Positions 34,877 through 39,264 of a stretch of 41,936 bases of DNA are shown in pieces. The number at the start of each line of letters is the position of its first letter. Positions within the stretch are counted from its first letter, which is position 1. Both the position numbers and the translations under genes were made by a program. The stretch is taken from NCBI GenBank assembly GCA_938049325.1, contig CALICC010000003.1, positions 1-41,936 on the forward strand, in the 5' to 3' direction. A model generated the notes under the pieces. It saw only the letters and a list, made by a program, of their open reading frames with translations, was not told the origin of the DNA and did not search any database. Origin of the DNA: an uncultured Ilumatobacter sp. (GTDB lineage: Bacteria; Actinomycetota; Acidimicrobiia; Acidimicrobiales; Ilumatobacteraceae).

Positions 34877-35506
34877 CTATGCGCGGACCACCGACGGAGT
34901 GTGAAGGCCGACGAGCACCGACATGGTGGGGGCGACTTGGATCTCGGTGGCGCGAACGTCGGGGTGCGTCAGCCAATGGTGGCGACCTTGGTCGATCTCA
35001 CCGTTGAAGTGCGGCGGCCACTGCTTCATCGGGGCGAAGTCGTCGATCGTGAACGAACCGAACGGCTTGACGACGTCGGCCAGTTCGACTCGCCGGTCGC
35101 CGGTCTTGCCGGTTCCCCACCCGCCGTCGAACACCAACAGATCGAACGGCCCCTGTTCGTAGAGCTCGCCCGCGTCACCCTGCAGCACCGTGACGTTCGA
35201 GACGTCGCGGAAGACGGTTTGAGCGGCAGCCGCACGAGCCTCGTCGAGCTCGATACTGACGAACTCGACGGCGGGGTCGGCATAGCTCGACAGCCACCCC
35301 AGCCCTGCACCGGTGCCGGTGCCGATCTCGGCGACACGGCCGCCCGGCGCAACTCCGGCTCCGAGCGACTGCAACAACCGTCCCGTCGCTGGGTGCACAC
35401 ACAGCTCGAACGACAGCTGCTCGGCAGCGGCGACCGCGTCACGTACGAGCGGCGGCACGGTGGCGGGATCGAGCGCCGCGTACATCGCAGTTCCTCCGAG
35501 CGACAT
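34877..35506 (-). CDS. Class I SAM-dependent methyltransferase (O-methyltransferase-like)
   Basis: VAEIGTGTGAGLGWLSSY, VSIELDEARAAAAQTVF, LLVFDGGWGTGKTGDRRVELADVVKPFGSFTIDDFAP. Confidence 0.82.
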   Translation of the reverse strand: MSLGGTAMYAALDPATVPPLVRDAVAAAEQLSFELCVHPATGRLLQSLGAGVAPGGRVAEIGTGTGAGLGWLSSYADPAVEFVSIELDEARAAAAQTVFRDVSNVTVLQGDAGELYEQGPFDLLVFDGGWGTGKTGDRRVELADVVKPFGSFTIDDFAPMKQWPPHFNGEIDQGRHHWLTHPDVRATEIQVAPTMSVLVGLHTPSVVRA

Positions 35507-36121
35507 CTACATCTCCTCGGCGTACTCGGCGAGCAGCTTGTCGGCGGCTTCGCGCAACAAGCTCGCTTCGGTTCGATTGGTCGCCCGGGACAGCGCAGCC
35601 AAACGGTCGAGAGTCGCCCGGCTGTAGTAGTTGCTCTTCATCACCATCTTGTCTTCGACGTAGATTCCGACGCGGTTCCGCCCGGCGCGTTTGCTTCGAC
35701 TGAGCGCCTCGTCGGCGGCGCGCAGCAGCTCGTCGCCAGTGGTGCCGTGCGGAGGACGCGCTGCGAGCCCTGCGGACAGCGTGACCGGATGCGCCTCCGA
35801 GCCGAGTCCGATCGATTCGATGTGCACCCGCACTTCGTTGATCAACACCAGCGCGTTCTCGAGGCTGACGCCGGGAAACGCGACCACCCACTCGTCACCA
35901 CCAATCCGGTCAACGAGTGACTCCTTCGGGAGATTGGTGCGCAAGGCTCGCTCGAACGTGGCAAGCAATCGGTCTCCGTCAGCGCGGCCCGCCGCATCGT
36001 TGAAGTCGCCGAACCCGTCGAGGTCGGTCATCACCACGCTGATCGGAAGATCACGAGCGAAGTCGTCGATGGCGAGCGCCACCTCGCCTCGGCCCACCAC
36101 CTTGGAGATCCTCATACTCAC
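35507..36121 (-). CDS. GGDEF-domain protein with C-terminal ribbon-helix-helix-like segment
   Basis: VVMTDLDGFGDFNDAAGRADGDRLL, VDRIGGDEWVVAF, SAGLAARPPHGTTGDELLRAADEALSRSKRAGRNRV; C-terminus SNYYSRATLDRLAALSRATNRTEASLLREAADKLLAEY. Start GTG 36121 or ATG 36115. Confidence 0.85.
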   Translation of the reverse strand: MSMRISKVVGRGEVALAIDDFARDLPISVVMTDLDGFGDFNDAAGRADGDRLLATFERALRTNLPKESLVDRIGGDEWVVAFPGVSLENALVLINEVRVHIESIGLGSEAHPVTLSAGLAARPPHGTTGDELLRAADEALSRSKRAGRNRVGIYVEDKMVMKSNYYSRATLDRLAALSRATNRTEASLLREAADKLLAEYAEEM

Positions 36122-36123
36122 TA

Positions 36124-36152
36124 CATATATACGTGTGTGGTACCAATGTCAA
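36124..36152 (-). promoter_or_regulatory. Sigma70-type promoter TTGACA-N17-TATATG
   Basis: Minus strand TTGACA TTGGTACCACACACGTA TATATG; exact 17-bp spacer; contains palindrome TGGTACCA (36138-36145). Confidence 0.7.
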
Positions 36153-36913: not shown

Positions 36914-38728
36914 CTACTCGTTCACCCAGTCGGGGCCGAGGTAGAACGACGAGATGCGCTCGGCTCGATACGTCACCCAGAGTTCGTTCGGCGCCGATCT
37001 GAACTCCCACACGACGTCGCCGCCTGACTGACCATCGGGCACGACTTCGCGCACCAGGATGTGCAGCGGATCCGCTGGATCGGGCGGGAACGCCCCGATG
37101 CCGCCGTGGGTGATCAGCACGTTGCCGTTCTCCAACACATCGGCGTCTCCGATGAATTCGGCATAGGCGACATCGCCCGACGCTTCGTTGTCGATGTGCT
37201 CCCAACGCTGTCGAGCAGACCAGTCAGCGGGGTCTTCCGAAGCATCGTCCACGTCGTAGATGACCGCGCGGCTGAACAACGGATTCGCCGGATCATCGGC
37301 AGAAGTACCCGGACGAACGTTGCCGTTGTCGTAGACCACCAGCGAACCGTCGACGTTCACTTCGACCGCGTGCTGGTAGTAGGTCGGCTCACCGTCGAGC
37401 GGCATCGTCGCGCCCGCACCGAGAATCCATCGAAGCTCCGATTGTGGGCCTTCGGCGTCGAGGTGGTTGAACGCAACGATCTGATTCGTGTGGCGCGACG
37501 AGATGATGATCGCGTCGCGCTCGGGGTCGTACACCGCGCTGTTCGCGTGCGTCCAGTCTCGTGTGTTCTCTTCCTGGAAAATCCCTTGCGGGACACAGAG
37601 TTCGATCCCGGGATGCTCATCGATACTCACCACGTCCCACAGGTCCCACGTGCGCACCACCGTGCCGTCGGGCTCGAATTCGACCGCGACGTCGCTCACC
37701 GCGTTGAACGGCGCCGGGTCGTCGGGGCAGAACGTCGCCCGCTGTTCGGGAGTGAGTTCGTGCACCGTGGTCGAGAGCGTCAAGATGTTGCCGTTCGGCA
37801 TCGGCCAGTTCTCATGATGCACTCCCACCAGGTCGATCCAGTCGGAGCGAACCGGAAGCGGATCGATGTCGCCCGGGTTGCCGGCGAGGGCCCCGACCCC
37901 ACCCTGAAATTCGACCTGATCGGGGTCCACTTCAGCAATCACCAGGTCGTCATCGACCGTGTCACCTTCGACCGACGACGGTTGCGGTCGCCAATGGCCC
38001 ACGACGTTGCCGAGCATGTCGATCTCGCGGATGCCGAACGGCCAGTAGAAGATGTTGAACGTGCCATCGGGCGTCGGCTCGAAACCCGCCTGCGCGCCCG
38101 TGTTCGCGTAGTACCACACGACCTCGCCGTCGTTGTCGTAGGCAACGAGGGTCTGGCTCGAGGGCGCTCCCTCTGGAATCTGGAGTGAGTCGAGCTCGAG
38201 CACCGTGTATCCGGGCGCGGCGCGGTCGGCGTCGACCGTGACCTCGTGCTCGGAGAACCACTCGGGGAGCGCCGACGTCGTGAACTCGCCCGCCTCAACC
38301 GATCCGAGCGATTCACCGTCTTCGTCGAACGCCTCGACGTCGACGAGGTAGGTGAGCTCGGCGCGCATGCCGACCAGCGGAATTTCGTGGTCGACCGCGG
38401 CCGCCACTGTGCGAGGTACCGCGACGCTGTGATCGTCGGAGGTTGCGGTGACTTCGATCTGGGCGGCCTGAGCAAGCGCAACCTCCACCGATGCGGCGAG
38501 TCCGATGTACGGACTGGGCTCGATCGCGATTCGAGTCACGACCCCTGGCTCGGTCGTGGTGGGTGAGTCGGTGGCGGGCGGCGCCTCGTTCGTCGCCACG
38601 GCCGGCGCAGTCGTGGCCGCATCAGATGGTTCGGTCGCGACTGTGGGCGCAGCGTCGTTGCCGTCGCTGGCACACGCACCAGCGAGGAACACGAACGAGG
38701 CAAACGAAACGACGAATCGACGAGGCAC
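36914..38728 (-). CDS. Arylsulfotransferase (ASST)-like lipoprotein
   Basis: Lipobox FVFLAGACASD after start VPRRFVVSF; GEVVWYYANTGAQAGFEPTPDGTFNIFY, HHENWPMPNGNILTL, YYQHAVEVNVDGSLVVYDNGN. Track ORF begins at 38812. Confidence 0.78.
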   Translation of the reverse strand: MPRRFVVSFASFVFLAGACASDGNDAAPTVATEPSDAATTAPAVATNEAPPATDSPTTTEPGVVTRIAIEPSPYIGLAASVEVALAQAAQIEVTATSDDHSVAVPRTVAAAVDHEIPLVGMRAELTYLVDVEAFDEDGESLGSVEAGEFTTSALPEWFSEHEVTVDADRAAPGYTVLELDSLQIPEGAPSSQTLVAYDNDGEVVWYYANTGAQAGFEPTPDGTFNIFYWPFGIREIDMLGNVVGHWRPQPSSVEGDTVDDDLVIAEVDPDQVEFQGGVGALAGNPGDIDPLPVRSDWIDLVGVHHENWPMPNGNILTLSTTVHELTPEQRATFCPDDPAPFNAVSDVAVEFEPDGTVVRTWDLWDVVSIDEHPGIELCVPQGIFQEENTRDWTHANSAVYDPERDAIIISSRHTNQIVAFNHLDAEGPQSELRWILGAGATMPLDGEPTYYQHAVEVNVDGSLVVYDNGNVRPGTSADDPANPLFSRAVIYDVDDASEDPADWSARQRWEHIDNEASGDVAYAEFIGDADVLENGNVLITHGGIGAFPPDPADPLHILVREVVPDGQSGGDVVWEFRSAPNELWVTYRAERISSFYLGPDWVNE

Positions 38729-38838
38729 CCTTGCATTCGACCAGTCCTCACGACGAAAAGCTCGCAACTCAGAATTTGCAGCGACGCGCGGTTCGCCCGT
38801 AACTCCGCGCACGGCGCGAATGCGTAGTGTGTTCGTCC

Positions 38839-39264
38839 ATGGTCAGTAACAAGCAGCAAGTCGAGAGCCTGCGCAACGTCAAACTGTTCAGCAGTTGCAC
38901 CGACAAAGAACTCCGCAAGGTCGCAAAGGCGACCGACGAAGTGTCGATGACCGAGGGAACGCTCATCATCGACCAAGGCCAAACCGGCCGCGAGGCATTC
39001 GTCATCGTCGAGGGCGAGGTGATCGTTCGTCGCAACGGTCGCAAGGTCGCCGAGCTGGGCGCTGGTTCAGTGGTTGGCGAGATGTCACTGCTCGACAAAG
39101 GTCCGCGCACCGCAACCGTTGTGTGCCAGACCGACTGCACGCTGCTCGTCATCGACCAACGCCGCTTCCTCGGTGTGCTCGACGAAATCCCGTCCATCAG
39201 CCACAAGCTCATGGCGAGCCTCGCGTCAAAGATCCGCGAACTCGACCGCGCGTCGTTCGGCTGA
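38839..39264 (+). CDS. Single cyclic nucleotide-binding (CNMP/Crp-like) domain protein without HTH
   Basis: GTLIIDQGQTGREAFVIVEGEVIVRRNGRKVAELGAGSVVGEMSLLDKGPRTATVVCQTDCTLLVID; no C-terminal HTH. Confidence 0.88.
   Translation: MVSNKQQVESLRNVKLFSSCTDKELRKVAKATDEVSMTEGTLIIDQGQTGREAFVIVEGEVIVRRNGRKVAELGAGSVVGEMSLLDKGPRTATVVCQTDCTLLVIDQRRFLGVLDEIPSISHKLMASLASKIRELDRASFG

Follow-up and report, generated by a model that had tools for sequence, protein, structure and literature searches.

A stand-alone GGDEF protein with a C-terminal ribbon-helix-helix-type tail and a conserved dyad at its own promoter: a candidate autorepressed diguanylate cyclase

Introduction

Control of GGDEF proteins is in most cases exerted by sensor domains and through an inhibitory site, the I-site, to which the product binds. 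The nearest precedents of the protein described here, in which a GGDEF domain is fused to a tail of the ribbon-helix-helix (RHH) type, are CdbA, VieA and the DgcY/HhmR pair. CdbA of Myxococcus xanthus is an RHH protein that binds c-di-GMP (PMC7156744). VieA of Vibrio cholerae is a c-di-GMP enzyme with a C-terminal DNA-binding domain, for which an autoregulation of its operon has been suggested (PMC4352251), and in the DgcY/HhmR system of Halomonas, a GGDEF protein without autoinhibitory site is subject to feedback via a transcription factor (PMC12421958). A fusion of GGDEF and RHH domains was not found in the literature covered by our search, which was largely open-access, and this agrees with the initial annotation of the gene, which did not recognize the architecture as a characterized one.

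The gene lies on a contig of an uncultured Ilumatobacter sp., and the whole stretch of 41,936 nucleotides that was analysed is referred to as the window in the following. We describe the protein, its relatives and their promoters, and we discuss which mode of control best agrees with these data.

Results

The GGDEF-RHH gene occupies positions 35507-36121 on the minus strand, exactly where the initial annotation had placed the open reading frame, and encodes a protein of 204 aa. The GTG start codon at 36121 is the counterpart of the ATG start codon in the homologue L053, an alternative ATG is present at 36115, and the frame ends with a TAG stop codon at 35509-35507. The protein consists of a sensor-less GGDEF domain and about 48 C-terminal residues, and with about 24 residues ahead of the GGDEF domain core, the N-terminal sensor is indeed missing, as had been claimed. 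The GGDEF domain (35663..36067, minus strand; residues 19-153) matches PF00990 over residues 19-150 with an E-value of 2e-25, and its score of 89.9 bits, compared with a cut-off of 23.8, places it among the GGDEF domains. AlphaFold2 models this domain with a pLDDT of ~97, and the PDB fold matches obtained with Foldseek are PleD, DosC and WspR.

The signature motif (35888..35902, minus strand; residues 74-78) was correctly read as GGDEW in place of GGDEF. Catalytic positions were assigned by the PleD numbering, which was checked against an alignment. The window protein possesses the metal-binding residues D33 and D76, the guanine-contacting residues N41 and D50, and also E77, K144 and R148. According to a residue table of the protein family described below, D33, D35, F37, N41, R72, D76 and K144 are kept in every full-length member, and (G/S)GDE is kept in 11 of the 12. 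The same table indicates that the equivalent of R446 is missing in several members and that the FK lysine, whose position is occupied by Gly38 in the window protein, is replaced in 11/12. A diguanylate cyclase activity is plausible, but uncertain, as this otherwise conserved lysine is lost so widely. Two relatives show further exchanges that possibly reflect a change of product or a loss of activity: L053 (8843-9469) has an SGDEW motif and a Thr at the guanine position, and L054 (8900-9511) has an AGDAY motif, in which the fourth residue of the GGDEF motif is lost. The guanine-contacting Asp is replaced in L055 as well as in L053, and is kept in the window protein. As Ser or Thr at the guanine position accompanies cGAMP synthesis in Hypr GGDEF enzymes (PMC6456294), the product of L053 may differ.

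The RxxD motif of the I-site, which would be expected five residues ahead of the GGDEF motif, is absent in all 12 members. Residues 65-68 of the window protein read PKES, and the absence of the inhibitory site that had been supposed for this protein is thereby borne out; the other full-length members carry PxxA/S/T or SDGA at this position.

A search for GGDEF-RHH fusions yielded 12 full-length members, the window protein included, and one partial member, and all of them are compact GGDEF-RHH proteins to which no domain is added. Close relatives are L001 (70%) and the partial L002 from public genomes; L005 (49%) stems from the order, L035/L052 and L036/L053 were obtained from the order and the class, and L049/L054 belong to a different class of the same phylum. 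A broader search within the order added L115-L121, with L121 apparently being the same record as L002. Members thus occur in many taxonomic families of the order, in other parts of the class, and in one further class. Carriers are nonetheless sparse. Of 397 genomes sampled in the order, the window genome among them, 10 encode a member, none was found among 36 other genomes sampled from the genus and its taxonomic family, and each of three searched genomes of one taxonomic family has a single copy. On viral contigs, neither the full protein nor the tail nor VapB-type RHH proteins had a relative, and the tail had no match on plasmids. The idea that the C-terminus is merely a variable GGDEF tail can be rejected, because the architecture is kept across the protein family and the tail is its best conserved part, with a mean pairwise identity of 70-74% compared with 49% in the GGDEF domain and 17% in the N-terminal extension.

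This C-terminal domain of the antitoxin RHH type (35507..35656 including the stop codon, minus strand; residues 156-204, EDKMVMKSNYYSRATLDRLAALSRATNRTEASLLREAADKLLAEYAEEM) gave only sub-threshold matches to RHH_3 (0.013) and Antitox_RHH (0.054) when the window protein was scanned as a single sequence. Across the protein family, homology to the RHH class is evident: PF20605 (Antitox_RHH) is matched by 13/13 members (best 1.3e-5), RHH_3 by 8/13 (best 8e-4), and a RelB-like antitoxin model by 11/12 tails alone (best 3e-5). A comparison of the tail profile with an alignment of VapB-type RHH proteins by hhalign resulted in a probability of 97% with an E-value of ~1e-11, which is not fully independent evidence, as these RHH proteins had been gathered with the tail profile itself; the Pfam and NCBIfam matches are independent of that gathering. 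In 100 column-shuffled controls, the probability did not exceed 4.5%, and ten tails taken from other GGDEF proteins gave VapB-profile scores close to zero. The tail profile leads to stand-alone proteins that are short and of the RHH type, several of them encoded beside PIN-domain toxin genes, and the signature R-T-E-A-S-L-L-R-E is nearly invariant in the tails of the members. Against PDB sequences, the tail profile gave only a weak match to CopG (E 0.44).

The RHH-like C-terminus postulated by the initial annotation therefore stands at the level of sequence homology (13/13 for PF20605, relation to VapB-type RHH), by which the tail belongs to the RHH type and the pattern in the window protein is confirmed as real, whereas the fold itself was not reproduced by structure prediction: in two AlphaFold2 runs with three near-identical rows, the tail appeared as a single helix of low confidence. 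As the input consisted of three near-identical rows and an RHH fold is an intertwined dimer, this result is weak evidence against an RHH domain.

Directly 5' of the start codon of the window gene, a 12-bp dyad, ACGTATATATGT, is found at 36123..36134 (minus strand; 14-bp form at 36122-36135), which represents an operator-like repeat that overlaps the gene's own promoter and is the predicted operator. A -35 element TTGACA (36147..36152, minus strand) is positioned 17 bp ahead of TATATG (36124..36129, minus strand), which lies inside the dyad and is predicted from this spacing to be the -10 element; a generic promoter scan did not list it. The position of the dyad and the -10 element relative to the start codon suggests that transcription begins at or beside the start codon and that the transcript is probably leaderless; no Shine-Dalgarno sequence is visible ahead of the start codon in the window.

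What is new here is that this dyad is conserved in 11 of the 12 promoters of the protein family, where ACRTATATAYGT or a close variant is placed 3' of a TTGAC -35 box and 5' of the start codon. TTGAC is present upstream in all 11 of these promoters, and it is followed by one base, 11-17 bp, and a dyad of about the form RACRTATATAYGTY that ends 0 to ~6 bp before the start codon. Between members, the identity is 75% in the dyad, compared with 27-31% in the spacer and 26% in the upstream DNA, which is the chance level. Since the motif was derived from the family promoters themselves, its presence there is partly circular, and the evidence lies solely in its spacing, its conservation relative to the flanks, and its uniqueness. 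Among six single promoters tested, the dyad symmetry was mostly no better than in shuffled sequences, with L052 and L054 as exceptions, and the sequence needed for a -10 element coincides in part with the conserved TATATA core. A promoter control set from the same loci (TTGAC plus TANNNT) comprised 4 sites only, which is too few. The farthest member, L054, which has the degenerate AGDAY motif, also possesses a Shine-Dalgarno sequence and a different repeat, i.e. the inverted repeat TATATATACTGGTAGTATATATA at -44 to -22 relative to its start codon, which is unlike the dyad of the other members.

Without mismatches, CRTATAYAYGT occurs in the window genome G000 (3.9 Mb) at the own promoter only, and the same is true for G045 and G419; the own site of G088 deviates at one position, and a single exact match lies at another place in that genome. 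With one mismatch allowed, the 12-mer is about as frequent in G000 as a reversed-pattern control (11+11 vs 8+9), and a motif-based regulon search gave nothing clearly above background. The exact ACRTATATAYGT was found in 19 of 298 genomes of the order, four of which are carriers that have it at their own promoter. Of the remaining sites, fifteen were inspected, and none of them had TTGAC and a start codon in the family arrangement, most being located in AT-rich sequence. The combination of tail and dyad (KSNYY...RTEASLLREA, ACRTATATAYGT) gives a sequence-based annotation marker for genes that general models label merely as diguanylate cyclase.

The neighbouring gene (34877..35506, minus strand) encodes a SAM methyltransferase-like protein (Methyltransf_25, 7e-6), and as its ATG directly follows the stop codon of the GGDEF-RHH gene, both are probably co-transcribed. 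A homologue is found in the same order at L001 (5625-6248) and not at the other members inspected, and the methyltransferase was thus rejected as a conserved operon partner; beyond this closest pair, there is no conserved neighbour. When the open reading frames beside the inspected members were read, no PIN or other toxin gene was recognized. The window also encodes an arylsulfotransferase (ASST) family protein (36914-38812, minus strand; PF05935, 1e-40) and a short stand-alone cyclic-nucleotide-binding domain protein without recognized partner domain (38827-39264, plus strand; PF00027, 1e-19).

Discussion

We consider it rather likely that this stand-alone GGDEF protein, which probably is a diguanylate cyclase or, failing that, a GTP-binding GGDEF protein, represses its own promoter by binding of its RHH tail to the predicted operator dyad ACRTATATAYGT. 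RHH dimers would sit on the dyad and block RNA polymerase, and the same RHH dimer would also pair two GGDEF domains. Transcriptional autorepression could in this way stand in for the feedback at the I-site and limit the output, and a nucleotide bound to the GGDEF domain may modulate the DNA binding. That the protein might regulate its own promoter had been a guess of the initial annotation, and it gains support from the conservation of the protein family, the VapB-type RHH homology, and the conserved dyad at the own promoter, for which the genome has no second strict match. As the motif suggests no other target, the effective output is probably c-di-GMP and not a regulon. More tentatively, the active GGDEF dimer and the DNA-bound RHH dimer could be alternative states, in which case the occupancy with GTP or c-di-GMP would directly set the transcription of the own gene only, and the cyclase would operate without product inhibition.

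Which other explanations could account for such an architecture? The GGDEF domain could have little or no catalytic activity and serve as a sensor of GTP or c-di-GMP, with the RHH tail as ligand-switched output. The loss of the FK lysine in 11/12 members and of the R446 equivalent in several, the replaced guanine Asp in L055 and L053, the AGDAY motif of L054, and a tail that is conserved better than the GGDEF domain would all agree with such a nucleotide-gated repressor, and there is a precedent in CdbA, an RHH protein that no longer binds DNA in the presence of c-di-GMP (PMC7156744). This alternative nevertheless appears unlikely, as D33, D76, N41 and K144 are present in all full-length members and (G/S)GDE in 11/12, and as no second genomic target was found, which means that a pure repressor would control itself alone, together with the downstream methyltransferase in two genomes.

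It is even less likely that the tail is a mere dimerization helix or coiled coil of a constitutively active cyclase and that the element in the promoter represents a strong -10 box of the usual kind. GGDEF enzymes require dimerization, AlphaFold2 predicts the tail as a single helix, and a -10 element has to be AT-rich, but antitoxin RHH models match all members, R-T-E-A-S-L-L-R-E is almost unchanged among them, and a -10 element alone neither needs the conserved ACR...YGT flanks nor predicts uniqueness in the genome. That a GGDEF gene captured a VapB-type antitoxin tail which, as a relic of a toxin-antitoxin fusion, still binds or neutralizes a VapC-like toxin encoded elsewhere is very improbable. 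RHH antitoxins, several of them adjoining PIN toxin genes, are the stand-alone proteins most closely related to the tail, but no toxin gene was recognized beside the inspected members, and the toxin-binding segment that comes after the RHH in VapB is missing, as the protein ends with the second helix.

If the proposed autorepression via the RHH tail is true, a single polypeptide would exert its feedback at the level of transcription instead of by enzyme allostery, and the gene offers a small, directly testable system with one protein and one predicted 14-bp site. In comparison with PleD, WspR and DosC, the GGDEF-RHH proteins are alike in fold and sequence, and the metal, guanine-N and phosphate-lysine residues are kept, but they have no sensor or receiver domain and no RxxD, the FK lysine is replaced, and a C-terminal RHH is added. 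With RHH antitoxins of the VapB/RelB type (PF20605, NF048017), they share the strand-helix-helix sequence pattern and a signature of the type T-x-R-T-E-A-S-L-L-R-E-A, and in both cases AT-rich repeats are found at the own start codon, with TATAC/GTATAC-type repeats at the starts of the VapB-type genes reached by the tail profile; they differ by the fusion to a GGDEF domain, by the absence of a toxin partner at the loci seen, and by the lack of a C-terminal toxin-binding segment. CdbA is a 67-aa RHH protein without GGDEF domain that binds the nucleoid globally, and its homologues have been reported in Myxococcales only (PMC7156744). VieA, unlike the proteins described here, is a phosphodiesterase of the REC-EAL-HTH type, and the autoregulation described for it is an activation (PMC4352251). 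In the DgcY/HhmR system, finally, a separate LysR protein lowers the enzyme activity, and no DNA-binding domain is fused to the cyclase (PMC12421958).
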